Positions 1-16,232 of a stretch of 46,209 nucleotides of DNA are shown here, in pieces (within the stretch, counting starts at the first letter, position 1; every line of letters begins with the position of its first letter). The notes beneath the pieces are model-generated. The model searched no databases. It was not told the DNA's origin and saw only the letters and a list, made by a program, of their open reading frames with translations. Source of the DNA: Ignavibacteriae bacterium HGW-Ignavibacteriae-2 (GTDB lineage Bacteria; Bacteroidota; Ignavibacteria; Ignavibacteriales; Melioribacteraceae); NCBI GenBank assembly GCA_002839805.1, contig PGYT01000031.1, forward strand, positions 1 to 46,209, written 5' to 3'. Both the position numbers and the translations under genes were made by a program.

Positions 1-1013
1 TACCAGTGACCTGAATTATCAGGGTCTGAAGAATTATTTCCGGGTAATTTAAAAAAGCGGTTTAAATACGCATCAACTTCGTGATTTCCGTAAATTGGCA
101 TCATTGGAATAGTATTAAGCAGTGGGGCCCAGTCGGCAAATAAATCGAACCAGTATGCGAGTCTGGTTCCATATTGTACCAAATCTCCTGTGTGCAAAAC
201 AAAATTTGCTTTATCGTTGATAACTCCCTGCATTACCGCGGTATCAATACCGGGACGATTATCTCCAATAACAACAAACATAAACTTTTCTGAATAATCG
301 GCGGTTTTAAATTCTCTCAAATCACTTTCATAAACTCCATTAGTTATCACTTTATACTTATAATTCGAATTTGGCTGCAAATTATTTATTTCCGCATGAT
401 GAATAAGTTTATCTCCGTTACTTATCATATCGGTATGCTTTGTTATATCCAGAATATTTTCATTTTCATCTCCGATACCGTAATAAATTTTGCTTTCGGC
501 AAAGGTTTCAGTAGCCCAGGAAACGGCAATGTCGGTTTGCGGATTACTATTATAAAAGGTTAGTACAGGGGTCCCATTCTCGGGTTTTGGAGGTTGAGTA
601 AAATCTTTCCAACTAAAAACTGTGTCGTAAAATATTAGCGGATCCAGTTCTTCGTCAATAAAGACAGATCTTAGTTCTATTTCGGTGCTGTCTGTATTAT
701 TCTCTAGGGTTTCAAGACTACCGCGAGTATATTTATATTGATATGTAGCTCCGACGCTAAGGTAAATTTTTATCTGCCATACACCCGAAGGAACAAAGTT
801 AAGAGCAAGATCGGTTGAATCGGGCTCCAAAAAAGGTCCCGGATCCCAATTATTCATGGATCCGTATAGATAAATAATATCGGAAGAAGGTGTGTTTGAT
901 GGAATTACTACATTAAAAGTAACCTGAATTTCTTTTGCGTAATACAGCCCGTTGAGGCGGAGTAATCCGGTGAAGTTGAGAATAAGAATTAAAAAAAATA
1001 TTTTGTTGTACAT
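1..1013 (-). CDS. Metallophosphoesterase with PAP-like Fn3 domain and N-terminal starch-binding-like domain (3' end beyond window)
   Basis: The reading frame starts with ATG at 1013 and stays open to base 1, so only the first 337 codons are present. It has a hydrophobic signal peptide (about residues 1-25), then a domain with the YLYGSMNNWDPG motif seen in CBM20/CBM48-like starch-binding domains, then a fibronectin-III-like domain (about 143-235, with VSWATE and LQPNSNYKYKV) as in purple acid phosphatases, and then the start of a calcineurin-like phosphoesterase. The metal-binding blocks GDNR, HTGDLVQYG and GNHE are visible; the later VxxH and GHxH blocks would lie outside the window. It is inferred to be an exported phosphoesterase; the substrate is unknown. 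It is divergent from the protease/CotH operon at 1196. A T9SS sorting domain could exist on the missing C-terminus. Confidence 0.9.
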   Translation of the reverse strand, partial: MYNKIFFLILILNFTGLLRLNGLYYAKEIQVTFNVVIPSNTPSSDIIYLYGSMNNWDPGPFLEPDSTDLALNFVPSGVWQIKIYLSVGATYQYKYTRGSLETLENNTDSTEIELRSVFIDEELDPLIFYDTVFSWKDFTQPPKPENGTPVLTFYNSNPQTDIAVSWATETFAESKIYYGIGDENENILDITKHTDMISNGDKLIHHAEINNLQPNSNYKYKVITNGVYESDLREFKTADYSEKFMFVVIGDNRPGIDTAVMQGVINDKANFVLHTGDLVQYGTRLAYWFDLFADWAPLLNTIPMMPIYGNHEVDAYLNRFFKLPGNNSSDPDNSGHW

Positions 1014-1123
1014 ATGCAAATAATTTGTAGGGTTAAGTATTGTATTAAAGTACTTATTATTTATGGTGAAAATCAATAAAATTTTTCTGATATATTAGGA
1101 TAACAATAAACGGACTGATTAGA

Positions 1124-1143
1124 AACCACATAAGTATGCGGTT
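1124..1143. promoter_or_regulatory. Imperfect 20-bp palindrome in the divergent intergenic region
   Basis: AACC-a-CATA, a 2-base centre AG, then TATG-c-GGTT: all paired positions match except one a/c pair. It lies 53 bases before the protease start and 111 bases before the start of the divergent phosphoesterase. It could be an operator or a hairpin in a leader; no regulator is identified. Confidence 0.3.
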
Positions 1144-1195
1144 GATAATAAAACAATATGTGTTAAATTGAAGTAAAGTATGAGGCGATATTAAA

Positions 1196-3190
1196 ATGAA
1201 GTTATTTGTCCTCCTGATAATTATTTTATGTGGTATAACAACTCAAATAATACCCCAGGCTTACGGAAAATATATTTGGAGGGATTCTGTAGAAACTAAT
1301 ATCAGCATAAACCAATCGGAAAAAAAAATCAGTTCAATAAATTTAACGACTTCACATCCTATTGATGTTATGGTTGTAATTATGGGGATTCTTGATAATC
1401 CTACTAACGACAATAGTTGGCCCAAAATAGAAAACCCAAGAGAATACCCCAACGAATTGTTTCCGCTATTGGGCACATTTTGGGACAAAACTCTTCTTAG
1501 AAAACATATAGAGAAAAACGGGCCTATTGATCTTGAAGACTGGATTATTCCCCAAATGCAGGATTATTTCGATTTTAATTCGAATGGAAAATTTAAAATA
1601 AATCTGATAGTTCCGAAAACGTCCGATGGAAAACTTTATATAACCGATTTCCCTTATGAATACTTGGTAAGCAGAAATGAAAACTCCAAAGCCGGAATGA
1701 TAATGCGTTATCAGAACTGGAAAATAATCGCGGAAAATATTCTCTCTAAAATTGCGGCCGAGCACCCGGGAATTCTTTCGAATGTTAAACTGCTTAATCT
1801 TGTATACCTTGTTACAGGCGAAGAATATTCGCGTGATAATTATGTTGCATATTCACCAGATGTGAAATTTAGTTTTACATCCCCGACCGGCGAAATTTTT
1901 TATAATGGATTTGTTACAACATCATTTAGCACAGATCCCATTCTTCACGAAATTTTCCACAGGGTGGGTTCTATTGTCGGAACTCCCGATGGATTCGAGG
2001 GTTTGCCCGACAGAACAACTTCAGAATTTTATGAAGCTCCTCAAAATATGACTTGGGGCCACGACATAATGTGCAACAAGGGTCAAATCCCTTCAGAAAA
2101 TGCTTTATTTGGTGTGCCTCCTATGCTAACTACGGATAGAATGTTTTTCGAATGGATTGAACCGGAAGAAGTGATAACTATAAGTTTTGAAAACAGAGAA
2201 AAAATAAAACTAATTGATGTTAACAGCAAAGTTCCATCTGATTTAATCGGTAAATATTTTCGAGCGGCAAAAATAATGATTCACGAAAATTTTGACGGCG
2301 ATCTCGATGAATATTTTTTACTTGAATTTAGAAACGGTTCAGGGTTCGACCGAAATTTTTACAATATATATGAGACCAATGTCCATACAGGCATGTTGAT
2401 ATGGCATATAAAAGAGAATACAAATTTGTTAAACAGGGAGAGGCATAACGATCATTTTTATGATCTTGAAGTTGCAGTGCCTTATAATGGCTGGTTGGGA
2501 ACGCCAGTCCCTAATGATGATTTTCCCCGATATTATTCTATTTCTGGAGATGCAAAATCAAGAACAAACGATGCAGGCGATTACGATTATTTAGACGATT
2601 CCTCATCTCCTCCATCTTTACCTGATGGAGGAGTTCACCGATGGGAACTATCAGATACTACTCATCCGCAATGGCACCCCTATTATTTGCGAAGAAATAC
2701 GCTTACTACCGATTTTTTTACGGATAAAATATTAAGAGGAAATATTGTAAATAGAATCACCAATACTACAAGGCCTTCTACAAAAGATTGGGCGGGGCAT
2801 TTAACAGACATTGCCGTATATAATATTAAACAATATGATGATTATATGACCTTTGATGTTACTTATGATGGAGCGGTTCTATCTGTGGATAAAGAAATAA
2901 ATGAGGATTTCTTTTATACGCTGAGCAACAATTATCCCAATCCATTTAATCCCGAAACTACAATTGAATATAACATTCCTTCGGAAAAATCGGGCACACA
3001 GCAACAACAAGTAAAACTTGTTGTATACGATATACTCGGAAATCAAGTTTCCACATTAATAAACGCTATACAATCCCCGGGTAAATACAAAGTTGTTTTT
3101 AACGGAACTAAATTATCAAGCGGAATTTATTACTATAGAATTACCGCGGGAAGTTTTGTTAAAACTAACAAAATGATACTCGTCAAATAA
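1196..3190 (+). CDS. Secreted M6-like zinc metalloprotease with T9SS C-terminal sorting domain
   Basis: 664 aa. A signal peptide (about residues 1-24) is followed by a large catalytic region. The zinc motif HEIFH (H251, E252, H255) with a following G258 gives HExxHxxG, and a DIM motif about 45 residues later (TWGHDIMCNKG) fits a Met-turn, as in M6 / immune-inhibitor-A type peptidases. The C-terminus from about residue 570 carries NNYPNPFNPETT (N578 onward) and ends in the GxYYYRITAGxFVKTNKMILVK-type pattern of T9SS type A sorting domains, so the protein should be exported across the outer membrane and attached to or released from the surface. A GAGG sequence 10 bases upstream supports the ATG. 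The gene is followed after 19 bases by the CotH gene, probably in one operon. Peptidase family is inferred from motif and layout. Confidence 0.88.
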   Translation: MKLFVLLIIILCGITTQIIPQAYGKYIWRDSVETNISINQSEKKISSINLTTSHPIDVMVVIMGILDNPTNDNSWPKIENPREYPNELFPLLGTFWDKTLLRKHIEKNGPIDLEDWIIPQMQDYFDFNSNGKFKINLIVPKTSDGKLYITDFPYEYLVSRNENSKAGMIMRYQNWKIIAENILSKIAAEHPGILSNVKLLNLVYLVTGEEYSRDNYVAYSPDVKFSFTSPTGEIFYNGFVTTSFSTDPILHEIFHRVGSIVGTPDGFEGLPDRTTSEFYEAPQNMTWGHDIMCNKGQIPSENALFGVPPMLTTDRMFFEWIEPEEVITISFENREKIKLIDVNSKVPSDLIGKYFRAAKIMIHENFDGDLDEYFLLEFRNGSGFDRNFYNIYETNVHTGMLIWHIKENTNLLNRERHNDHFYDLEVAVPYNGWLGTPVPNDDFPRYYSISGDAKSRTNDAGDYDYLDDSSSPPSLPDGGVHRWELSDTTHPQWHPYYLRRNTLTTDFFTDKILRGNIVNRITNTTRPSTKDWAGHLTDIAVYNIKQYDDYMTFDVTYDGAVLSVDKEINEDFFYTLSNNYPNPFNPETTIEYNIPSEKSGTQQQQVKLVVYDILGNQVSTLINAIQSPGKYKVVFNGTKLSSGIYYYRITAGSFVKTNKMILVK

Positions 3191-3209
3191 AATTATTCAA
3201 TTAAAGTTC

Positions 3210-5099
3210 ATGACTAAAAAAATATTCGCCGTAATATTTATTCTATTATTATCCGGAACAATTAAAGGACAAATAAATTTTGTATCCTCGCATCTTCCTA
3301 TAATTATTATTGACACAGAAAAAAAAGCTATAACCGAAAACATAAAAATACCCGCCGGTATGAAAATAATTTGCAACAATGAAAATAAATTGAATTATTT
3401 AACAGACCCTCCCTCAGAATATGACGGATTTATTGGAATAGAACTTAGAGGGTCAAGTACACTTCGTTTCCCCAAAAAATCTTACGGAATTGAAACTAGA
3501 GATAGTCTTGGGGAAAATTTGAATGTTTCCATTTTAGGAATGCCTCCCGAAAATGATTGGATATTGTATGCTCCATACAGCGATAAAACATTAATCAGAA
3601 ATGTACTGGCATATAAACTGAGCCGTAAAATGGGACAATATGCTGTAAGAACAAGATTTTGTGAACTTTTTGTAAATGGTGACTACAAGGGATTGTATGT
3701 TCTGATGGAAAAAATTAAAAGGGATCGAAACAGAGTTGATATAAAAAATCTTGAGGAGAAAGACGCAGAAGGGGTAGCGCTTACAGGAGGTTATATTTTA
3801 CAAATTGACAGGTCTGATTCCGAAGGGTGGTTTTCCGATTTTTTATCACAAATTGATAGTAATAAAAAATATTTTTATCAATATTATTTTCCCAATCACA
3901 ACAGCATAACTGATATCCAAAAAATTTATATAAAAAACTGGATTCAAAAATTTGAGGCGATAATAGATTCCGAACATGTCGACCACCCTGATAGCGGGTT
4001 TGTAAAATATCTGGATGTTGATTCGTTTGTTGATTATTTAATAATATCAGAACTTTCTAAAAACGTTGACGCGTATAGGTTGAGTACATTCATATATAAA
4101 GACAGAGACGATAAAGATCCCAGGTTAAAATTTGGACCCGTGTGGGATTTTAATATAGCTTTTGGTAACGCCGATTTCTATCGCGGCCAGTTTATAGACG
4201 GATTTCAAATTACAACGGAACTTTCGGATTTATATCAAACACCATTCTGGTTTATGAAACTGTTTGCTAACGCACTCATATTTAATAAGTTCAGTAAAAG
4301 GTGGAATTTATTGCGTAATGCAACATTTTCTACCGATAGTATTATTAAATACATTGATGATAATGTTACTGAAATTGGTTCGGCAGTTGACAGAAATTTT
4401 AACAAATGGAATATAATCGGCAAATATGTCTGGCCTAATCCGGTAGTTTATAATTCATACATCCAGGAAGTTGACCAATTAAAAAACTGGTTAACAAAAC
4501 GTCTTAATTGGATAGATTCAAAAGTAAACAAGGAATATTCATCTATTGATTGGGTACAAAAATATCAGTTGAGCATAAATAGCGGAAAAACAACCACCAT
4601 TTTAAAAGAAGAATTTTTTGTTAATAAAAAGAATATTGACAGCATAAAATTTGTCCCCATAAGTAATAACCTGGTTATTAATTCATCCAATAATTATGCT
4701 GTATTTACAAATTATGGGGAAGAGGTTAAATATTTTATAGCAACCGGTTTCCATAATGGAAGTGTAGTGGAATCCTCACCGCTCTATTCGGTAAGGTCAG
4801 ATATTACAGTCAATAAAGCTGAATCTAAGACGATAAGTAATTTTTCCTTACAACAGAACTACCCTAATCCTTTTAATGCAAAGTCAAATATCATATATCA
4901 ATTATCTAAAAGCGAGTTTGTAAAACTTTCAGTGTACGATGTTTTGGGAAAACAAATATGCATACTCGTTAACGAGAATCAATATCCCGGACAATATTCA
5001 ATTGTTTTTGACGGAACTCAAATAGCCGGCGGAATATATTTTTATACTTTGCAAGCGGGCAGTTTTACGGAAACACGAAAAATGATTCTACTCAAATAG
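3210..5099 (+). CDS. CotH-family protein kinase, exported, with T9SS sorting domain
   Basis: 629 aa. Signal peptide at about 1-20 (ends GTIKGQ). The CotH fold is recognised from ELRGSSTLRFPKKSYGIE near residue 80, the block YKGLYVLMEKIKRDRNRVDI starting at Y159, and WDFNIAFGNAD starting at W312, which corresponds to the conserved WD(F/Y)D-type metal-binding region; here the second acidic position reads N. CotH proteins are atypical protein kinases (named from Bacillus spore coat) that phosphorylate Ser residues. A short Fn3-like stretch and a T9SS type A domain (from about residue 544, YPNPFN at 551-556) follow. It sits 19 bases after the metalloprotease gene. Its stop is 2 bases from the stop of the convergent peptidase gene, leaving no room for a separate terminator. 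The kinase substrate is unknown; kinase activity is inferred from family only. Confidence 0.92.
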   Translation: MTKKIFAVIFILLLSGTIKGQINFVSSHLPIIIIDTEKKAITENIKIPAGMKIICNNENKLNYLTDPPSEYDGFIGIELRGSSTLRFPKKSYGIETRDSLGENLNVSILGMPPENDWILYAPYSDKTLIRNVLAYKLSRKMGQYAVRTRFCELFVNGDYKGLYVLMEKIKRDRNRVDIKNLEEKDAEGVALTGGYILQIDRSDSEGWFSDFLSQIDSNKKYFYQYYFPNHNSITDIQKIYIKNWIQKFEAIIDSEHVDHPDSGFVKYLDVDSFVDYLIISELSKNVDAYRLSTFIYKDRDDKDPRLKFGPVWDFNIAFGNADFYRGQFIDGFQITTELSDLYQTPFWFMKLFANALIFNKFSKRWNLLRNATFSTDSIIKYIDDNVTEIGSAVDRNFNKWNIIGKYVWPNPVVYNSYIQEVDQLKNWLTKRLNWIDSKVNKEYSSIDWVQKYQLSINSGKTTTILKEEFFVNKKNIDSIKFVPISNNLVINSSNNYAVFTNYGEEVKYFIATGFHNGSVVESSPLYSVRSDITVNKAESKTISNFSLQQNYPNPFNAKSNIIYQLSKSEFVKLSVYDVLGKQICILVNENQYPGQYSIVFDGTQIAGGIYFYTLQAGSFTETRKMILLK

Positions 5100-5101
5100 T
5101 A

Positions 5102-6706
5102 TCAAACAACAAATTGTAGCGAATAATATTTAGGATTCAAGGGTTCACCGGTAGCTTTTAAAATTAATTCCTTCCAATTATATAAAGCGCCATAATTAAA
5201 AAAAAGATTTTTCAAATATTCGCCGGCATCATTTTTATCAGCGAAACATTCAAACTCCGGATTATTACTTCTCAGTACTTTGTTTGAAATGTAATGGTAA
5301 AGTTGAGAAGCAAGTAATTCGCCAAGCATGTAATTATGATAATAAGCAGGATAAAGAGCCATATGAATTTTCGCTGCCCAATCAGGCTCATTGCGCCCTT
5401 CGGGTTTTTTAAGCAATTGGTACTTTTCAACTATCTCCCACCACAATGAATTTAAATCTTGGTCTGGATTGATATACAACTCTTTCTCAAATCTATACAT
5501 AACCTGGGTCCAACGTGAAAAAACGAGCTGCTCCAAACGCAGAGCATTATGACTTAGTTTCTCAATTTTCCGCGCATTCTCCAGTCCGATGTTTAGCATT
5601 TGATTCATCCAGTAAGGGTTGGAGGCAAATCTCCCGAACAACATAGCTATTGATTCGGTGGTAAATATATGTGCGTGTGTTCTTAGCTGCCATGGAAGTT
5701 GAGGAGAGATATACTTGTCGTAAACCGCGTGCCCGGTTTCATGAAGCATAGTCGACATCCACCGATGATTGGTTTTAAGGTTGCATACAATTCTTATGTC
5801 CCCCTCTCTATCTATATCGGTACAATAGGCATGTTGGTATTTCTTATCTTTCTCGTAAAGGTCGCTTTTGTTAATTATATCCTCAATTTGCAAACCAATG
5901 CTTTCAAAATATTTTATTGTTTTGTCAACCAAATCAACGTCTTTATAATACTTGTCGTAGTCTACTTCGTAAATACGCGGACCCTGCTGAAAAAATTTAT
6001 CCTGATAATGCCAAGGCATTAAATCCTTTGTGGGAATTTTAAGCCGGCCGGAAATATAGATATCAATTTCTGATTTTAGCTCGGTAAAATTATCCCTTGT
6101 AAGAAAATCCAATTCATCGAATAGTTTATCCAAATCTTCCGTAGTCTGTTCATTTAATTTCAAACTCATTTGATGATAATTATCGTATCCTAAAATTCGT
6201 GCGGCTTGATTGCGCAGTTTAACAAGCTCAATAACTTTATCCTTTACTTCTTTTCCTATTGATTTACTTGCTTCCCAAGTAATTTTAAGTTCTTCATTAT
6301 CCGTGGAATATTTTAAAATATCATCAATTTCATTGTCTGTTAAATTTCGCCCGTTAGCTTCGGCACGGAAAGTTGAAAATTTTTCTTCAATATGGGTGCT
6401 GCAATCAATTATTTTTTTATGCAGATCTTCGTCAAATTGATTTTTTGCGAAATCGTTAAAAAAAAGATCAACCTGGCGTTTAATTATAGGATCATCAATT
6501 TCCATCTGAGCGAATTTTTTTAATTTCGCATATATATTTTTATCCGAATAAAACTTGCTCAACTCAAATTCAAATTCCGATGCTTTTTTATATTCTTCCG
6601 AATTCCCCGATATAGATGCCTCGAAATTGGCAATATTACAATTCTTATGCAGATTGATAACTTTATTTTCGATTTCCAGAATTAATAGTTCAATTTCCTT
6701 CAACAA
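5102..6706 (-). CDS. M2/M3-clan zinc metallopeptidase (ACE-like fold)
   Basis: About 534 aa, no signal peptide, so cytoplasmic. The gluzincin motif HETGH is at 322-326, and the third ligand is probably E351 (FTTESIAMLFGR), 25 residues on. The C-terminal half (LWWEIVEKYQ, then WAAKIHMALYPAYYHNYMLGELLASQL) resembles the layout of M2 (angiotensin-converting-enzyme type) peptidases, with M3 oligopeptidases as the alternative. No ATG is available: an AGGAG box lies just upstream of two consecutive TTG codons (6706 and 6703), and spacing favours the second. It is last of three co-directional genes, 31 bases after the GroES-like gene. Its role is probably turnover of short peptides. Confidence 0.88.
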   Translation of the reverse strand: MLKEIELLILEIENKVINLHKNCNIANFEASISGNSEEYKKASEFEFELSKFYSDKNIYAKLKKFAQMEIDDPIIKRQVDLFFNDFAKNQFDEDLHKKIIDCSTHIEEKFSTFRAEANGRNLTDNEIDDILKYSTDNEELKITWEASKSIGKEVKDKVIELVKLRNQAARILGYDNYHQMSLKLNEQTTEDLDKLFDELDFLTRDNFTELKSEIDIYISGRLKIPTKDLMPWHYQDKFFQQGPRIYEVDYDKYYKDVDLVDKTIKYFESIGLQIEDIINKSDLYEKDKKYQHAYCTDIDREGDIRIVCNLKTNHRWMSTMLHETGHAVYDKYISPQLPWQLRTHAHIFTTESIAMLFGRFASNPYWMNQMLNIGLENARKIEKLSHNALRLEQLVFSRWTQVMYRFEKELYINPDQDLNSLWWEIVEKYQLLKKPEGRNEPDWAAKIHMALYPAYYHNYMLGELLASQLYHYISNKVLRSNNPEFECFADKNDAGEYLKNLFFNYGALYNWKELILKATGEPLNPKYYSLQFVV

Positions 6707-7172: not shown

Positions 7173-8432
7173 TTATGTTTTTTGTTTTTTCTTTTTAGCT
7201 GCTGGAAAAAGAATATTGTTTAAAATTAATCTGTAACCAGGGGAGTTTTTAAACAAACTAAGATCAGTAGGCGGATCACCAACAGCATGCTGATAATCTT
7301 CGGGATCGTGTCCGCCATAAAATGTAAAAGTGCCCCTTCCAAAATTCCCATGTATATATTTAACCTGATCTGTTCCCGCCCGTTCACCCAAAATATAAAC
7401 TGATTTTTTTATGAGTTTTTTGCGAAACATTGTAGTTTGACCCATAAATCCTTTGATGACGCTAACATGGTCTTGAATAAGCATTGTTGGCACAGGATCA
7501 TATTTTGCGGAATAATCGAAAAGGGTAAAGTAGTCGTTATTTCTGTCGCCGACTTCTGTAGGCTGAATGTCAATGTCGCTGTACTCATAAATCATTGGGT
7601 TCATTTCTAATCTAAAATTTTCGAACGCGAAAGTATCGTTAAAGTTTAATTTATTTTGTGCGTTCACATCAGGCGCGTCACCGTCAAACATTCTATCCAC
7701 TATATCGACATTTAATGCGGCAAGAGCAATGTCGTAAGAATCCGTAGCTGAACACATAGCAAAAAGAAAACCGCCATTTGAAATATAGTCGCGTATTGTG
7801 CTTACAACAGCCTTTTCCATATCCGATACTTTTGTGAAGCCGAGTTTTTTTGCTTCGCGTTCATACAACATTTGTTGCTCGATATACCATTGTGCGGTTC
7901 TGAATGAAGCGTAAAATTTTCCAAATTGACCCGTAAAATCTTCGTGATGTAAATGCAGCCAGTCATATTTAGCCAAATCTCCTCGTAAAATCTGTTCCAG
8001 CCAAATTTTTGTATATGGAACCTCAGCGTAGTCAAGTACTAACGATACGGCGTCATCCCAAGGCAAATAACCTTCTGGTACGAAAACAGCAATTTCAGGC
8101 GCTTTTTCAAGTCTTACAACTTCCATATTTTGTTCTTCGCTTTGCACAAAAGCATAAATCTGAACAGCTTCGTTAGCGCTTAGGACTTTAAAGCCCACGC
8201 CTTTAATTCTGCATTTTAGGGCAAATTCTTCAGAATAATCGAGCATAAAAGAACCGCCCCTGTAATTTAAAAGCCAATCGGCGGTAGCCCCATTTTTTAA
8301 TTGATTGAATGTTAAGCCATAAGCTTTCAGGTGATCTTGTTGTTCAAGATCCATAAAAATGAGAAGTTTTTGCTGAGCAAAAATTGAAAAGCATGACAGA
8401 AAGAATAAAACAAGAGCAGTTTTTTTAATCAT
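7173..8432 (-). CDS. Secreted conserved protein of unknown function (often named asparagine synthetase B in databases)
   Basis: 419 aa with a clear signal peptide (MIKKTALVLFFLSCFSIFAQ). Highly characteristic segments are MDLEQQDHLKAYGL near residue 27, DWLLNYRGGSFMLDY, LHLHHEDFTGQFGKFY and FLFAMCSATDSYDIALAA. From memory, proteins with these segments are common in Bacteroidota and are labelled asparagine synthetase B, but no glutamine-amidotransferase class II N-terminal Cys and no PP-loop ATP site are visible, and the protein is exported, so that name looks wrong. The order IAVFVPEGYLPWDD ... KYDWLHLHHED ... GGFLFAMCSATD suggests a class I glutamine-amidotransferase/ThuA-like fold with a Cys at the nucleophile-elbow position; this is inference. 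First gene of the GroES-like/peptidase group; the start is ATG. The C-terminus is very basic (KKKKQK). Confidence 0.82.
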   Translation of the reverse strand: MIKKTALVLFFLSCFSIFAQQKLLIFMDLEQQDHLKAYGLTFNQLKNGATADWLLNYRGGSFMLDYSEEFALKCRIKGVGFKVLSANEAVQIYAFVQSEEQNMEVVRLEKAPEIAVFVPEGYLPWDDAVSLVLDYAEVPYTKIWLEQILRGDLAKYDWLHLHHEDFTGQFGKFYASFRTAQWYIEQQMLYEREAKKLGFTKVSDMEKAVVSTIRDYISNGGFLFAMCSATDSYDIALAALNVDIVDRMFDGDAPDVNAQNKLNFNDTFAFENFRLEMNPMIYEYSDIDIQPTEVGDRNNDYFTLFDYSAKYDPVPTMLIQDHVSVIKGFMGQTTMFRKKLIKKSVYILGERAGTDQVKYIHGNFGRGTFTFYGGHDPEDYQHAVGDPPTDLSLFKNSPGYRLILNNILFPAAKKKKQKT

Positions 8433-8630
8433 TGCAATTCATTTTAATTATCAAATTATAAAAAATATGCGATCAATATAGCCGCTGGGCAACTTATACA
8501 AACACCCAGTTTAAATATGGTGTTCTAAAATAAAGATATCGGAATAAAAATGGAATGGTCAAAAAGTTCGGTATTCTGTTGAACCAGTCGGTATAATACC
8601 CGATTAAAATAGATTCGTTATTTAAGAATA

Positions 8631-8655
8631 AATTTCCGGACAATGTCCGGAAATT
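8631..8655 (-). terminator. Hairpin downstream of clpX, probable terminator
   Basis: An 11-bp perfect inverted repeat, AATTTCCGGAC and GTCCGGAAATT, separated by 3 bases, begins about 22 bases after the clpX stop. On the minus strand it is followed by an AT-rich stretch (TATTCTTAAAT) rather than a pure T run. It closes the trm112-glcD-TPR-clpX operon. The rest of 8433-8630 shows nothing else I can support. Confidence 0.7.
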
Positions 8656-8676
8656 AGAAAAATAATCTTTATAAAA

Positions 8677-9930
8677 CTAAGCAGATTTACGGTCGGATTC
8701 GATATAAATCGGTTTAGACTGTTCTTCAACGGTATCTTTTGTTATAAGACACTTGTCGATATTCTCTTTATTAGGCAGTTCGTACATAATATCTAAAAGG
8801 ATTGATTCAACAATTGAACGTAAAGCCCTCGCGCCTGTTTTTCTTTCCATGGCTTTTTTTACAATTGCTGAAACAGCAAGATCGTCGAACTCCAATTCCA
8901 CACCTTCCAACATAAATAATTTTTTAAACTGTTTTATTATCGCATTCTTTGGTTCAGTAAGTATATTTTTCATTGCTTCTTCGTTCAAGGATCTTAACGG
9001 CGCAACCATAGGTAAACGTCCTACCAGTTCAGGAATAAGTCCGTAACGAATCAGATCTTCCGGCTGAATTTTTGCTAAAAGATCATCTTTTTCGAAATGA
9101 TCTTTTTGATCGACCTCAATATCAAAACCGAGAGTATTTTTATTTATTCTCGAGGCTATTATAGGCTCTATACCGTCGAAAGCACCGCCACAAATAAACA
9201 ATATATTTTTTGTATTAATATTGATTAAACTTTGTTCGGGATGTTTTCTCCCGCCTCTTGGAGGGACACCGGCAACGGTTCCTTCTAAGATTTTAAGAAG
9301 CGCCTGTTGTACTCCTTCACCGGAAACATCTCTTGTAATAGAAACACTTTCGCTTTTACGCGCAATTTTATCTATTTCGTCTATATAAATAATACCCTTT
9401 TGGGCTTTTTCAAGATTATAATCGGCGGCCTGAAGTATACGCACAAGAACGGTTTCAACGTCATCGCCCACATAACCTGCTTCGGTTAAAGTGGTTGCAT
9501 CCGCAATTGCAAATGGAACATCCAATATTTTTGCTAAAGTCTGGGCAATTAAAGTTTTTCCTACACCCGTCGGACCGACCAAAAGGATATTGCTTTTCTC
9601 AATTTCCACGTCATCGAGTTCAAAAAAACTTGCGCTAGCATTAATACGTTTGAAATGATTATATACTGCAACCGCAAGCACTTTTTTTGCGAGGTCCTGT
9701 CCAATTACATATTCATCCAAATTTTTATGCAGGGATTCGGGTGTTAAACTTGATTTTCCTACCGGTTTCGAACTGAAAGCAGCAATATTATTTTTTAATA
9801 TATCAACGCTTGTTTTTATACAAATATCACAGATATATACATCAGGACCAGCAACCATACTGGTCACTTCGCTTCCGTCTCTACCGCAAAAGGAACATTT
9901 AACGGATTTATTGTCTTCGTTTTTGCTCAT
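8677..9930 (-). CDS. clpX: ATP-dependent Clp protease ATP-binding subunit ClpX
   Basis: 417 aa, the usual ClpX length. The N-terminal zinc-binding domain has C12-x2-C15 and C34-x2-C37. The AAA+ core has Walker A GPTGVGKT (119-126), pore loop GYVG (152-155), Walker B IIYIDEID (180-187), the RKH loop, a ClpP-binding loop reading LGF at the IGF position, and sensor-2 TGARALR. ClpX unfolds tagged or native proteins and feeds them to ClpP. No clpP or tig gene is beside it; instead the start overlaps the stop of the TPR gene by ATGA, so translation is probably coupled. It is the last gene of a four-gene operon that ends in the hairpin at 8631-8655. Confidence 0.98.
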
Positions 9931-11813
9931 TTAGTAATGCCATCTTTATTATTTAGTCTTTGAATTAATTCACGAGATCTGTCAAAATATAATGAGTTTG
10001 GATAAAACTCAAGTATATTTTGGTAGAACTTGATCGCTTTGTTACTGTTATTAAGCGCAAACTGAAAAATTTGAGCGCTAAGAAAATAACTTTTGTCATT
10101 AATCAAGCCGGAATCGTCATTTTCAATAATTTCAGTAAGAACATTTAATGCATCGTCGTACAAATTTTGTGCAACCAACATTTCTGCTAAATTGTAAGCC
10201 GACAGCTTACTTATGAATAACAACGATTTATTATCGAAAAGTTCTTTATAAATAGAAGATGCTTCCGAAAATTTTTTTTGTTCCTCTAAAAAAGAAGCAG
10301 AGGCATATTTGGCCAGGTTAAGTGAATCCTGTTTATTTGTTGTTATTAAAAGCTCAAGTTCAAGCGCGTCGTTGGCAAAATCATTATTAAGATTTTTTGT
10401 CACTTTTGAAAGATTATTGCCCGCAACAGTAAAACGACCCTGCCAAAAATACAATTTTGCCAGCTTAAATAGAATTCGATTTTGATTAATATCATTTTTA
10501 TTGTTTAATGAAAAAGCTTTCTGGAAATAGACTTCCGCCTTAGATAAGTTCCCCATGTAAACATTAATGTCACCTAATAACTCAGTGGCCGCTGGATAAA
10601 CAGAATAATTTAGCTGACCTCCATCGATGGAGGAAAGCAGCTCAATAGCTTCCTCAATTTCCAATTGTTTGTGGAATTTAATTTCAGCCAAACGATATAT
10701 AGCTTCAGCAGACATTTGAGAGTTAGGAAACGTTTCAATTATTTCGCGATACTGCTTTATTACTTTCTCAAATTTTTCCGCGTTGGATATGTCATAGTCG
10801 GAAACTTGTTTCCAGCTTGGATTTTCGGATTCAATATTACTCTCAACAGATGATTGTAATGTTTTTGCAAAGCCTATTTTTGCGCTTGGAAAATAAGGCG
10901 AGGACTTATAATTGTTGATTATCGCGGCATAACATTTTGACGCAGTGTCAAAAATATTATCATTATATAACTGCTGCGCATATGAATATAGGACAGCACC
11001 TTTCGCGTCCGAGGTTTTATCTATCTCCTGAATAATATTAAAAGCCGTATCATAATTTTTATTGCTAATATAAACAAAGGCCAGCAGTTCTTTAAGTGTT
11101 CTATTATCTGAAGAAGCAATAAAGTTCTGTATTGATGATTCAGCAGCTTCACCCGCACCCGGCCGACTCAAAAAGATGGCAATTCTGTTTTTAACCACTT
11201 CGAGCTGTAGCGGATCGTTTATAACCAATAAACAAAACTCATCAACTGCTAAATTGTACTGCATGTTGGCGGCATAAATATTTGCCAGATCGTACGAAAA
11301 TATTTTTGGATCGGAGGACTTTTCTTTTCCTCTCAGCAAATACTCAATGGCTTTATCGAACGCACGATTTTCTAATGCATAATTCGCAATTATTCTGTAA
11401 TTAATCTGATTACCAGCGTTTATTTCGAGACCCTTATTCCAGGTGTTAAATGCATCATTTTGGCGTCCCATAACATAAAATGTGGTTCCGAGCAATCCAT
11501 AAGCATTAACGTCATTTACGTTCAATTTTAAGCTGTTTTCGAGCAATTTAATAGATTGATCGTACTTTTTAAACTGAAGATAAAGATTATTGAGGGCAAT
11601 TATATAGGTTTGATTCCATGGTTGAATTTTTAATAAATCGATATAAATAGATTCTGCCCGGCTATAATCGCCTGCTTGTTCGTAATTCCTGGCAAGTTGA
11701 TACTTGTTTTCAAGATTTAATTGGTTTTCTTGTGCCTGGAGTGAATTGGAAAAAACCAGCATAACGAATAAACACACCGAGCAAAAAAGTAAGATAAATA
11801 ATTTATTTTTCAT
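9927..11813 (-). CDS. Exported tetratricopeptide-repeat protein
   Basis: About 628 aa with a signal peptide ([19 protein letters not shown]...LQAQ), followed by TPR-type helical repeats through the whole length, for example [22 protein letters not shown] near the N-terminus and [22 protein letters not shown] near the C-terminus. The start at 11813 is preferred because the protein then begins directly with the signal peptide; an in-frame ATG at 11831 would add six residues. The gene start overlaps the end of the glcD-like gene and its stop overlaps the clpX start (ATGA). It is probably a periplasmic or membrane-associated scaffold; partner unknown. Its link with clpX is positional only. Confidence 0.88.
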
Positions 11814-13293
11814 CAAAATAGTTTGTTTCAAATATATTGCCTATACCCAAGATTAAATTAGGGTCCAGCGCCTTTTTAAGTTGCGCCATTTCTTTAATTT
11901 CAGTTTCATTGAACATTATGTTTAGGAAATTTCGTTTCAGTTTACCAATACCATGTTCGGCTGAAATAGTTCCTTTCATTTCAACGGCTTTCGAGCATAA
12001 ATCGGCATAAATTTTTCGAGCTTTTAAATATTCGGTTTCGTTTTTGGGCAACATGTTCAAATGCACATGAGAATTTCCAGCATGTCCGTAGCAGATATAA
12101 TTTAATCCGTTCGATTTAACGGTGGTTATAATATAATCATAATATTCTAAAAATTTATTGTCGGGAACGGCTGTGTCTGTGCCAACCTTGCGTACGTTTT
12201 CGCGAGTAATATATTCAGTAACTTTCCATGAAATGGCGTGTCTGAAATCTTTAAATTTTGTTCTATCCTTTTCGTTTGTAGCTATCCAGGCGGTTTCCAG
12301 ATCACCATTGTTTTTTTCTATTAGCTCCATCCAGTTGTTAAGGGCTTCTTCTTCGCTGACGTCGTCAATTTCTTGTTCAAACCAAACTGCGGCATTAGCT
12401 GTTTGGGGAATTTGAGTATATTCTTCAATCATAAATTTTAATGAATTATTATCGAAGAATTCCAAACCAAGCGCATTAATAAGAGAAAGATCATTACTAT
12501 TTCTATTACTTTTTGAGGATTCGCGCACTTCCGTAATAAAGTTTAACGCGTCCATCTCGTCATCAAAAAAGATTATGCTCGAAAGAATGTTTCGAGGCAA
12601 ATCAATAAGTTTAAGTTTTATTTCGCTTAAAAATCCTAACGTTCCTTCTGACCCTATAAACAAGTCAATAGCATCCATGCCTGGTTTATAATAATAACCC
12701 GCGGTGTGTTTGGTTTCGGGCATTGGATGCGCCGGCAAATTCAATTTAATTAATTTACCGCTCTTTGTAATAAACGATAAGATGTTATCTACAGCGTATA
12801 CGTCGCCTCTATTCAAATAAACTTCTTCACCATCGGGCAAAATAATATTTGCGGCTTCAACATAATCACGTGTCGGTCCGTATTTAAATGTTTTTGCTCC
12901 GGAAGAATTATTTGCTACTGTCGCGCCTACAAAACAATTCCGTTCTGTTGGATCCGGAGGATAAAACAAGCCTTTGGATTCAACAAGATCCTGAAAATCT
13001 TTTAAAATCACTCCCGGTTCAATAACAGCGTATTTATTGGTTTCGTTTATCTCTATTATTTTATTCAACAGATTAGTGGAAATTACAATTCCATCTTCGG
13101 GCACTCTTGCACCGGTAAGTCCCGTACCATTGCCAGATATTGTAACGTGAGTTCTGTTTTTGTTCGCGTCAATTAAAATTTGTTTAACTTCTTCGGCCTC
13201 TTTGGGAAAGTATACCGCGTCACAATCGCCTTTAAAATTTGATGCATCCTGGAAGAAGTCCATTATTTCGGATTTGTCTGTTTTAATTATCAT
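11803..13293 (-). CDS. FAD-linked oxidase, GlcD / D-lactate dehydrogenase family
   Basis: 496 aa. The FAD-binding type 4 (PCMH) domain has GNGTGLTG (54-61), VATVANNSSGAKTFKYGPTRDYV-type segment near 130, and the C-terminal FAD-oxidase domain has YGHAGNSHVHLN and SAEHGIGKLKR, the usual substrate/flavin-binding signatures. Such enzymes oxidise 2-hydroxy acids (D-lactate, glycolate or D-2-hydroxyglutarate) and pass electrons to quinone or a partner. No glcE/glcF or iron-sulfur partner is adjacent, so the substrate stays open. It lies 47 bases after the Trm112-like gene and overlaps the TPR gene by about 11 bases. The start is ATG. Confidence 0.94.
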   Translation of the reverse strand: MIIKTDKSEIMDFFQDASNFKGDCDAVYFPKEAEEVKQILIDANKNRTHVTISGNGTGLTGARVPEDGIVISTNLLNKIIEINETNKYAVIEPGVILKDFQDLVESKGLFYPPDPTERNCFVGATVANNSSGAKTFKYGPTRDYVEAANIILPDGEEVYLNRGDVYAVDNILSFITKSGKLIKLNLPAHPMPETKHTAGYYYKPGMDAIDLFIGSEGTLGFLSEIKLKLIDLPRNILSSIIFFDDEMDALNFITEVRESSKSNRNSNDLSLINALGLEFFDNNSLKFMIEEYTQIPQTANAAVWFEQEIDDVSEEEALNNWMELIEKNNGDLETAWIATNEKDRTKFKDFRHAISWKVTEYITRENVRKVGTDTAVPDNKFLEYYDYIITTVKSNGLNYICYGHAGNSHVHLNMLPKNETEYLKARKIYADLCSKAVEMKGTISAEHGIGKLKRNFLNIMFNETEIKEMAQLKKALDPNLILGIGNIFETNYFDEK

Positions 13294-13340
13294 TTTTCAG
13301 ATTTCTTTTTATTGGTAAGTATTAACTAGAATGGTTTTAT

Positions 13341-13559
13341 CTATTGTTTAACTGTTATTCCGTGTTTCTGCATTAAAGACAGCCACGTTTCCATATCCAG
13401 CTGTTCCGATTCCTCAATAAGCATAATAGGAATATCATCCTCAATTTTATACCTTCGTCGAGTATTAATATCTGTGGATACAAGGGTATCACCCTCAAGC
13501 ACTAAATCAGCTTTGGATTCCGGGCAACATAAAATGTCTAATAATTCTTTACTTATCAT
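13341..13559 (-). CDS. Trm112-family small protein
   Basis: 72 aa. LLDILCCPESKADL near the N-terminus and the block YKIEDDIPIMLIEE match the Trm112p/UPF0434 family, whose members activate methyltransferases or have unknown roles in bacteria. The usual zinc-type CPxC is reduced to CCPESK (C11, C12), so zinc binding through a full set of cysteines is unlikely, as in many bacterial members. A GAGG sequence 8 bases before the ATG supports the start. It is the first gene of the operon that runs to clpX; the promoter candidate at 13600-13607 lies about 40 bases upstream. Confidence 0.88.
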   Translation of the reverse strand: MISKELLDILCCPESKADLVLEGDTLVSTDINTRRRYKIEDDIPIMLIEESEQLDMETWLSLMQKHGITVKQ

Positions 13560-13599
13560 TATTGAACCTCGGGCGGCTTAATGGTTTAATTTTTGAGTG

Positions 13600-13607
13600 C
13601 AAATATA
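13600..13607 (-). promoter_or_regulatory. Candidate Bacteroidota-type -7 box (TATATTTG)
   Basis: On the minus strand the sequence reads TATATTTG, an exact match to TAnnTTTG, 41 bases before the ATG of the Trm112-like gene. A T-rich stretch lies about 20 bases further upstream but no clean TTTG -33 box. It could drive the trm112-glcD-TPR-clpX operon. Confidence 0.4.
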
Positions 13608-13683
13608 ACATAGTTTAATATGAAAAAGTAATCCCTAAACAAATCAACAGGTAACAATTGGTCAAAAGTATAAACAAATAAAT

Positions 13684-15378
13684 TTAGGATCTCAATAAAA
13701 CGCCGGGTCTCTCTCCCGTATGTCGTCCCTCGTCAATAACTACCTTGCCGTTAACAATAACGTAAGGAATACCTTTTGGATATTGGTGAGGATCCAGAAA
13801 TGTGGCACGGTCTTCAATAGTATTAAAATCAAATATTGTTATATCGGCAAAATTATTCTGTTTAATTCTACCTCGATTTTTAATGAATAACTTATCCGCC
13901 GGCATGGAAGTCATTTTTTTTATCATTTCTTCAAGAGAGCAAATGTTGCGTTCGCGTACATATTTGCCAATAGCCCGCGGAAAAGTGCCGTAAGCACGGG
14001 GGTGAGCAATTCGATTGTTCATAGGCGGATATGGTGCATGAGCGCCGGCATCAGAGGCGATCATAACACGTGGATGAGAAAGTATTTTTTCTGTGGATTT
14101 TTCGCTCATTCCAAAACCAACCATAGAAACATCGGCGCTTGAATTTATTAAAAGATCTACGGCTGTGTCAAATGGATCTTTGCCAAGTTGTTGCGAAATT
14201 TCTTTTATCGACTTTCCCTTAAATATTTGATAATCGGTGTTATTAATTCCGCTGATTACAACACCCGCCCAATCACCGTCAAGATTCATAGCTTTTTTAT
14301 CTGAGTATTTTCTCATCTCAATCAGGAGGGAATCATTTTGCAGACGCTGTATAAATGATTCGTTACCGCCGTCTCTGGCCCATAAGGGGAAAAGATTTCC
14401 AAGTCCCGTGTGGTAAGCGACATAGGTATATCTATCCGCGTGGACTTCCAAACCGTTTTTTACAGCCTCATCCATTTTATTCAATAGAGATTCTGCTTTG
14501 TGCCAGTTAGATTTGCCGGAAGCTTTTAAGTGTGACATCTGCAGTCTGCAGCCGGACTCTAAGGCTATTTTAATCGCCTCATCAACAGCCTCCTCGCCAA
14601 AATCATCTTCGTTTCTCATGTGAGTGGCGTATAATTTTGTTTTACCCTGTGGCACCGATCCGCAGACTTCAATTAATTCTTCTGTGGAGGCAAAACTTCC
14701 TGGAGTGTACTCTAAGCCAGAAGCTAAACCAAAAGCACCTTCCTCAATAGCTTTTTGAATTTCATACTTCATTCTGCGCATTTCATCGACTGTTGCCGGC
14801 CTATCGTCCATTCCTACACAGATTTCTCTTATTGTTCCCAAACCTAAAAGAGTGGCCTGATTAACTGAAAATTTTTGTCCCGAAAGCATATTTAAAAAAG
14901 CACCCATCGAATTATTCGCTACGGTTGTCCCGTACTTTTCTTCAAATCTTTCGTTTATTTCGGAAAGTTTTTCAGGATTTACCGGCGCGAAAGATTCACC
15001 GCAATTTCCGCTTATTTCCAGAGTAATTCCTTGTCTGACTTTACTTTCACCATTGGGATTACTTAAAACTCCAAGATCGGTATGAGTGTGAATATCAATA
15101 AAACCGGGGGTAACCTTTAATCCGGTTGCGTCTATAATTCTATCGGCTGAGGCGCTTTTCAGATTTTCTAAAGCCAATATTTTGCCATCCTTAATACCAA
15201 TATCGGCGCGGAATTCTTTTGAACCTGTGCCGTCTATTATTAATCCATTTGAAATAACTATATCGAAACTATTGCCTTTCCATGTGATTGCGGGAATACC
15301 GGCAGCACCTAAAACAAATGTAGATGCGGTTAATAAAGTTGAATTCTCAAGAAATTTTCGACGATTAATTTTTTTCAT
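13684..15378 (-). CDS. Tat-exported D-aminoacylase / N-acyl-D-amino-acid deacylase family amidohydrolase
   Basis: 564 aa. The N-terminus has a twin-arginine signal (NRRKFLENS, R6-R7, then a hydrophobic segment to about residue 31), so the protein is folded with its metal before export. The amidohydrolase core shows DIHTHTD (H97, H99), a GNCGES motif with C126, which is a zinc ligand in D-aminoacylases, and later ATHMRNEDD, QMSHLKASGK and MIASDAGAHAPYP. The reaction is probably removal of an acyl group from a D-amino acid or a related dipeptide in the periplasm. It follows the PPK2 gene by 11 bases on the same strand and is likely co-transcribed with it. ATG start with a GGATAT-like ribosome site. 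Confidence 0.92.
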   Translation of the reverse strand: MKKINRRKFLENSTLLTASTFVLGAAGIPAITWKGNSFDIVISNGLIIDGTGSKEFRADIGIKDGKILALENLKSASADRIIDATGLKVTPGFIDIHTHTDLGVLSNPNGESKVRQGITLEISGNCGESFAPVNPEKLSEINERFEEKYGTTVANNSMGAFLNMLSGQKFSVNQATLLGLGTIREICVGMDDRPATVDEMRRMKYEIQKAIEEGAFGLASGLEYTPGSFASTEELIEVCGSVPQGKTKLYATHMRNEDDFGEEAVDEAIKIALESGCRLQMSHLKASGKSNWHKAESLLNKMDEAVKNGLEVHADRYTYVAYHTGLGNLFPLWARDGGNESFIQRLQNDSLLIEMRKYSDKKAMNLDGDWAGVVISGINNTDYQIFKGKSIKEISQQLGKDPFDTAVDLLINSSADVSMVGFGMSEKSTEKILSHPRVMIASDAGAHAPYPPMNNRIAHPRAYGTFPRAIGKYVRERNICSLEEMIKKMTSMPADKLFIKNRGRIKQNNFADITIFDFNTIEDRATFLDPHQYPKGIPYVIVNGKVVIDEGRHTGERPGVLLRS

Positions 15379-15389
15379 TAGATATCCAA

Positions 15390-16232
15390 TTAATAAATTT
15401 CGGGAATAAAAGTCTGATCTGTTATTGGGGGACGCTCATAACCTTTCTCTTTAATTCTGGGAGGAAGTTTTAACGGCTGAGGAGTAAGATCCTTGTATCC
15501 TATCATACTTAGCAGGTGAGCAATAGTGTTTAATCGGGCTCGCTTTTTGTCATCGGCGTTCACAACAAACCATGGAGCTTGTTTTATATCCGTAAAATTA
15601 AACATCTCGTCTTTAGCTTTGGAATAATCTTCCCATAATTCGCGTGATTTAAGATCCATCGGGCTTAGTTTCCACCTGCGACGCGGATCTCTGATTCTTT
15701 GCTGAAATCTTTTTTCCTGCTCTTCATCACTTACAGAGAACCAGTATTTGATAAGTATAATACCAGAGCGCACGAGCATACGTTCAAACTCCGGACAAGA
15801 TCTTGTAAACTCCTTATATTCTTCTTCTGTACAAAAGCCCATTACCCTTTCAACGCCGGCCCGATTATACCAGCTCCTGTCAAAAAGGACCATCTCTCCG
15901 GCGGCAGGTAATTGAGTTGTATATCTCTGAAAATACCATTGAGCTTTCTCTCGTTCTGTAGGGACACCCAATGCAACTACACGGCAAATACGAGGATTTA
16001 ATTTATCCATAATACGTTTTATCGTTCCGCCTTTGCCTGCGGCGTCCCGACCTTCAAAAATAACTACTACTTTTAATTTTTCGTGTTTTATCCACTCCTG
16101 TAGTTTTACCAATTCCACCTGGAGTTTAGCCAGCTCTTTTTCGTATATATTCTTAGAAAGTTTTTTATTCTCCTTTTTTACATCCGGCTCTTCTGCGGAT
16201 TCTTCTTTTGAATGTTTCTTCTTTTTTGACAT
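15390..16232 (-). CDS. ppk2: Polyphosphate kinase 2 (PPK2)
   Basis: 280 aa. After a charged N-terminus (about 1-30), the PPK2 domain shows Walker A EGRDAAGKGG (60-69), Walker B LFDRSWYNRAGVE, and the lid segment RIRDPRRRWKLSPMD. PPK2 enzymes move phosphate between polyphosphate and nucleotides; the single domain and length fit class I (NDP to NTP or the reverse), although class cannot be proved here. AGGAG 8 bases before the ATG (GGAGTATACGATG) supports the start. It lies upstream of the amidohydrolase gene with an 11-base gap. Confidence 0.96.
   Translation of the reverse strand: MSKKKKHSKEESAEEPDVKKENKKLSKNIYEKELAKLQVELVKLQEWIKHEKLKVVVIFEGRDAAGKGGTIKRIMDKLNPRICRVVALGVPTEREKAQWYFQRYTTQLPAAGEMVLFDRSWYNRAGVERVMGFCTEEEYKEFTRSCPEFERMLVRSGIILIKYWFSVSDEEQEKRFQQRIRDPRRRWKLSPMDLKSRELWEDYSKAKDEMFNFTDIKQAPWFVVNADDKKRARLNTIAHLLSMIGYKDLTPQPLKLPPRIKEKGYERPPITDQTFIPEIY

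Follow-up and report, generated by a model that had tools for sequence, protein, structure and literature searches.

The stretch of DNA described here, referred to as the window, comprises 46,209 nucleotides at the start of contig PGYT01000031.1 (C7:1-46209) of the 4.16-Mb draft genome of Ignavibacteriae bacterium HGW-Ignavibacteriae-2. At its left end lie three genes encoding a purple acid phosphatase-like (PAP-like) phosphoesterase, a remote M6/InhA-type metalloprotease, and a CotH kinase-family protein. Our best explanation, to which a probability of about 0.6 is assigned, is that these form an accessory locus of cargo for the type IX secretion system (T9SS), in which the phosphatase gene diverges from a two-gene protease/CotH unit and the protease and the kinase are dispensable. 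All three enzymes would be exported through Sec and T9SS, and each would work independently on substrates outside the cell or at its surface, by protein cleavage, phosphate release, and, in the case of CotH, a nucleotide-dependent modification. The locus would be under weak or changing selection. Each of the three enzymes belongs to a known kind. A dedicated phosphorylation-and-processing pathway in the source genome is possible and is the less likely reading.

The conclusions regarding the trio rest on protein searches that covered 79 family genomes. The order PAP, M6-like, and CotH was observed in three of them, belonging to two genera: the source genome (G000), a second species of the same genus (G047), and a member of another genus (G015). 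Since two further genomes have the same order, the grouping is not peculiar to the source genome. Conservation of the order in relatives, set as a test of the original prediction, was thus borne out in part, but the arrangement is rare, and the catalytic portion of the M6-like protein is missing in both of the other genomes. In G047 the order is kept on contig C535 with a whole CotH gene, a PAP gene with a broken frame, and an M6-like remnant corresponding to approximately residues 1-199 and the end of the tail, with in-frame stops. The G015 locus contains an intact PAP of 629 residues with a T9SS tail, divergent from an M6-CotH chimera (L176, positions 139-1026; G015:C196). This chimera is a single open frame in which residues 39-100 of the M6-like protein are joined to residues 371-629 of CotH, apparently by one deletion. 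The HExxH motif is missing from both the remnant and the chimera. As a result, two of the three copies of the trio have a damaged protease gene, and one has lost the CotH kinase core. There are no N letters in either locus. Both remnants are closest to the M6-like protein of the window (161 versus at most 94 bits, and 50 versus at most 27 bits, for the nine other M6-like proteins), and the contig end past the chimera encodes the same M3-type peptidase end as is found in the window (64% identity over 39 residues).

In both of these genomes a PAP gene persists (intact in G015, with a broken frame in G047) although protease parts, and in G015 kinase parts, have disappeared; this pattern speaks against a pathway that requires all three components. 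The original prediction was that the trio could jointly phosphorylate and process surface proteins; beyond co-location no support for this was found, and the parts are lost singly. A reversible extracellular module, in which CotH phosphorylates surface proteins, PAP dephosphorylates them, and the M6-like protease matures or trims either the targets or CotH itself, is considered unlikely. Its appeal lies in the proximity of kinase-fold and phosphatase genes in three genomes, in the retained catalytic residues of CotH and the visible motifs of PAP, and in the phosphorylation of coat proteins by Bacillus CotH described in PMC7821199. Such a module is difficult to reconcile, however, with an intact PAP in G015 that has neither a CotH kinase core nor a protease at its locus, or with G047, where an intact CotH accompanies a protease remnant and a PAP gene whose frame is disrupted. 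Moreover, apart from the window and G047 C535, PAP or M6-like genes lie beside none of 23 CotH loci (some of which are cut by contig ends), glycoside hydrolases (GHs) are found within 3 kb of nine CotH loci, and no extracellular donor is known.

Several points weigh against the accessory-cargo explanation. The damaged copies were found in draft assemblies of 580 and 410 contigs, and assembly or base errors could explain some of the damage, foremost the frame breaks in the G047 PAP gene. The trio is known from only three instances in the family. A second M6-like gene of G015, with HExxH kept, is located on another contig, C168, and could replace the lost protease. Finally, the trio is intact in the source genome and may still be working as a set there.

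Comparison of G000 with G047 provides a measure of how quickly the trio changes. Identities are 40-45% for the trio proteins versus 61% for the neighboring M3-type peptidase, 78% for the GroES-like protein, 79% for a 419-residue protein, and 86% for ClpX. Because ClpX and GroES are slow proteins, the peptidase is the fairer yardstick. Judged by these identities, the trio has either diverged faster than the genes around it or been exchanged. The M3-GroES-419-ClpX block occurs in G032, a third species of the genus, with a different gene replacing CotH beside M3, and protein searches of that genome gave neither an M6-like match nor a close PAP match. In G047 the block resides on a separate contig from the trio, again with a different neighbor. 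The locus probably predates the split of the two genera, and transfer between genera is also possible.

All three open reading frames (ORFs) are present where the original prediction had placed them (Table 1). As it had claimed, the M6-like and CotH genes lie on the same strand and both products carry T9SS tails matching Por_Secre_tail, and the divergent neighbor is indeed a PAP-like phosphoesterase. Given the gap of 19 bases between them, the M6-like and CotH genes presumably constitute an operon. Promoter-like matches over positions 900-5300 barely exceed those in shuffled sequence (27 versus a mean of 20.8, standard deviation 4.9), and a terminator scan was likewise uninformative.

Table 1 Positions in the window of the three genes, their domains and motifs, and the flanking peptidase gene
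Feature	Positions	Strand	Remarks
PAP-like phosphoesterase (Pur_ac_phosph_N + Metallophos)	3..1076	-	C-terminus truncated at contig start
Divergent intergenic region, PAP-like versus M6-like gene	1077..1195		no strand
Remote M6/InhA-type metalloprotease, 664 aa	1196..3190	+	signal peptide, long N-terminal region, T9SS tail
HEIFH motif of M6-like protein	1946..1960	+	residues 251-255; H251, E252, H255 invariant
T9SS sorting domain of M6-like protein	2933..3178	+	residues 580-661; PF18962 E 9.5e-8, TIGR04183
CotH kinase-family protein, 629 aa	3210..5099	+	signal peptide, T9SS tail
CotH domain	3438..4514	+	D287 (4068-4070), D313 (4146-4148); K89, K90, E167 also invariant
T9SS sorting domain of CotH	4860..5087	+	residues 551-626; PF18962 E 1.2e-8, PDB 8glj E 4.1e-5
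Convergent M2/M3-like peptidase	5102..6706	-	neighbor outside the trio; marks the site in common with G015

The CotH protein of the window is, by its sequence and predicted model, a structurally intact member of its family. The match to PF08757 (E 9.3e-62; 209.8 bits versus a cut-off of 23.8) spans positions 1-322 of the 322 in the profile, and the CotH profile also matches PDB entries 5jd9 and 5jda. In an alignment of the window protein with 24 other rows, Asp 287, Asp 313, Lys 89, Lys 90, and Glu 167 are invariant in all 25, and the 25 copies likewise keep the core of the tail motif. On the basis of the 23-residue spacing in 5jd9, Asp 287 and Asp 313 most likely correspond to Asp 228 and Asp 251 of Bacillus subtilis CotH; PMC7821199 describes the D228Q and D251A forms as catalytically inactive. 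The predicted model (predicted local distance difference test score, pLDDT, of 80) displays a kinase fold, for which the top-ranked match is 5jda, the Bacillus cereus CotH with Mg/AMP (E 4.8e-14), followed by 5jd9 (E 6.2e-14). The presence of the catalytic residues, set beforehand as a test of the original prediction, was thus confirmed, and the protein could be an active enzyme. It shares with the spore-coat CotH proteins of Bacillus both the fold and the two catalytic aspartates, but it differs from them in its T9SS tail, the Bacillus protein being produced in the mother cell, and the identity over the structural match is 17%. No gene for a Ser/Lys/Arg-repeat substrate was recognized by eye among the ORFs of the window, a reading that did not include a dedicated search.

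The PAP-like protein matches both Pur_ac_phosph_N (E 5.3e-11) and Metallophos (E 1.2e-7) above the cut-offs. Its C-terminus, and any tail, fall outside the start of the contig. Purple acid phosphatases contain five metal motifs, and GDNRP, HTGDL, and YGNHE are visible in the window protein, whereas the remaining motifs would lie beyond the contig end; these are present in the G015 relative. The protein shares with purple acid phosphatases both domains (PF16656 and PF00149) and those metal motifs that are visible, and it differs from them in an extra N-terminal part and in the T9SS tail, the latter seen in the G015 relative. Residues ∼66-110, within the extra part, weakly resemble AMPK-beta glycogen-binding chains (E 0.26-0.27). 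The TTG start at position 1076 is probably too early, and the ATG at position 1013, which by reading opens a signal-peptide-like stretch, is the likelier initiation codon. Close relatives (E < 1e-40) were found in four of the 79 family genomes, namely G000, G015, G030, and G047. A class-wide search gave at least four of 391 genomes, a weak figure in that only three of 30-154 candidates were scored per listed genome; T9SS tails probably swamped its first pass. The PAP gene of G030, on a 12-kb contig, has neither an M6-like nor a CotH gene beside it, tails aside.

The protein encoded upstream of CotH is remote from its presumed family. A protease match was obtained in neither Pfam nor NCBIfam, even at E values up to 10, and profile searches of the PDB yielded no protease or M6 relative. 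In an alignment of the window protein with eight rows from two families of the order, His 251, Glu 252, His 255, Asp 272, Asp 290, and the PDR motif are invariant in all nine; Asp 272 and Asp 290 are putative ligands of the zinc site. The TIGR03296 "M6 domain" profile was weakly matched by one of five scanned relatives (E 2.5e-4; 21 bits versus a cut-off of 110.8), and the cut-off of the M6 family model was not reached by any of the M6-like proteins scanned. Three of six proteins, not including that of the window, match InhA-like VEG at E 0.0096-0.065. Even in a poor predicted model (pLDDT 46), the InhA2 zymogen 4yu6 was top-ranked (E 2.6e-3). None of these hints is conclusive singly, but all point the same way, to a distant protease of the M6/InhA type that is probably made as a zymogen. 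Similarities to InhA/M6 (4yu6, TIGR03296) include the HExxH motif, a later PD, and a long N-terminal region. The spacing HExxHxxGLPD is usual for M6; the window protein, unlike InhA/M6, has ∼11 extra residues between HExxH and PDR, whereas the protein on G015 C168 is without them and reads HExxHxxGLPD.

The M6-like family is rare, occurring in six of the 79 family genomes (the source genome and the G047 remnant included) and in at least eight of 391 genomes of the class, with at most three candidates scored per listed genome. With the profiles used, CotH was near none of the nine other M6-like loci. In five of these nine (L079, L080, L081, L192, and L193) the M6-like gene is preceded by another T9SS-tailed ORF of ∼430-460 residues (two frames in L193), and the two represent a candidate conserved pair. 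A 969-residue ORF near the CotH gene of G008 had been grouped with the M6-like proteins by loose-linkage clustering, and was rejected, having neither HExxH nor an M6 profile match.

With regard to export, SprA is encoded in the source genome (E 3.7e-294), this being the T9SS component that was sought. T9SS tails are carried by both the M6-like and CotH proteins, and that of PAP is seen in G015 only. When the M6-like protein was used as a query, 124 matches were observed in the source genome, and all except its own gene begin at residue 483 or later, mostly in the tail. From 109 of these 124 tail rows, with frame starts taken as stop-to-stop estimates, 13 same-strand pairs within 150 bases were counted, involving 23 genes and including the window pair. 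Tandem T9SS cargo is therefore ordinary in this genome, and adjacency alone is weak evidence. Mere adjacency of unrelated cargo genes, with which these counts agree, is nevertheless very unlikely, given that two other genomes have these three families in identical order and that the window-type M6-like gene was found in the trio setting only (three of three). Order kept in other genomes is a stronger argument than adjacency.

Relatives of the window CotH were found in 24 of 57 sampled family genomes, with the source genome and the G015 fragment counted. A general CotH-PAP-M6 module was rejected, the arrangement being found at only one of the 24 other aligned CotH loci, G047 C535, together with the G015 fragment. 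GH16 genes are located within 3 kb of seven of the 25 CotH loci, and GH3 or GH5 genes account for two more, for a total of nine. The 23 genomes of these loci hold only 49 GH16 genes, and roughly 0.1 GH16-linked loci would be expected by a rough arithmetic that ignores kinship. In a quick tree, eight of the nine GH-linked proteins form one separate clade (Shimodaira-Hasegawa-like approximate likelihood ratio test, SH-aLRT, 100), and thus the seven GH16 cases, from four genera, are not independent. The window CotH pairs with that of G047 (SH-aLRT 98), outside this clade.

It is conceivable from these neighbors that CotH assists in the breakdown of polymers outside the cell, an accessory role that has been suggested for cellulosomal CotH, with the M6 protease and PAP as further scavenging enzymes. 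The source genome carries seven CotH proteins, of which a paralogue on C28 is situated among GH16 and GH3 genes, and cellulosomes are known to contain CotH modules (PMC12484212 and PMC6083626). For the window this explanation is rather unlikely, however, in light of the separate clade just described and of the lack of a visible GH neighbor, the side past PAP being off the contig. Accordingly a GH partnership of the window copy was rejected; the GH link is a lead on the role of secreted CotH in the group and provides no evidence on the window copy. In a wider contig scan with the CotH query, 38 of 80 loci matched the CotH part and the rest mainly the T9SS tail. Of these, 37 (L089-L125) were examined; the CotH profile was found in 36, and 29 rows were entered into the tree. 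Only L105, from the Marinilabiliales, has GH16/GH3 beside CotH, by narrow profiles, and the link is thus not general.

The GH-linked CotH loci (L060, L063, L069, and L073-L078), as well as paralogues of the source genome (L085 and L088), have GH16, GH3, or GH5 adjoining. They are possibly loci for beta-glucan or related polymers with a secreted CotH. These relatives recall the cellulosomal CotH proteins, such as CseP (Cthe_0239) of C. thermocellum and those of anaerobic fungi, which PMC6083626 and PMC12484212 describe as secreted and attached to an extracellular system. The window CotH, on the other hand, carries a T9SS tail rather than a dockerin and has protease and phosphatase neighbors rather than a glycoside hydrolase. 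A literature search did not find a T9SS-secreted CotH in published work.

A different CotH setting is provided by the Pel loci of Gram-positive bacteria, in which CotH, a polyphosphate polymerase, and DUF4956 are accessory genes, according to PMC7112168. The CotH on C24 of the source genome resembles this set in lying with DUF4956 and VTC, and differs from it in an added outer-membrane export pair; the window CotH, in contrast, has neither DUF4956 nor VTC adjoining. In that locus (L083, G000:C24:42000-56848, positions 7958-14847) this second CotH, of 467 residues, is on the same strand as genes for DUF4956, HlyD-like, OEP, VTC, and lamin-tail-domain proteins. A polyphosphate donor beside the window CotH was rejected, VTC being found at C32 and C24, of which that on C24 accompanies the different CotH. 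We regard as improbable a self-contained T9SS-exported system for modifying proteins outside the cell, in which a kinase-fold enzyme with its own phosphatase and a maturing protease would draw on an extracellular nucleotide or polyphosphate donor. On that reading, the shedding of protease and kinase parts and the formation of M6-CotH chimeras would resemble the behavior of a locus for interaction or self-recognition that experiences diversifying selection.

Protein phosphorylation outside bacterial cells has been little studied and is not known to have an obvious donor. With CotH relatives in 24 of the 57 sampled genomes, phosphorylation by secreted CotH becomes a testable question. The piecemeal loss of its components makes the trio locus a poor argument for a dedicated pathway, and the GH-linked CotH clade is the better model for testing.

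On its other side, the CotH gene ends 2 bases from the convergent M2/M3-like peptidase gene, beyond which lie the GroES-like ORF, the 419-residue ORF, and ClpX, with GroES and ClpX named by reading the sequence. The 419-residue protein gave no family match in the library scans. In another family of the order (L191, positions 7511-15704; G417:C68), an M6-like gene lies ∼4 kb from a GroES-like/M3-like pair such as the one next to the window CotH, with a different order, and this proximity may be due to chance.

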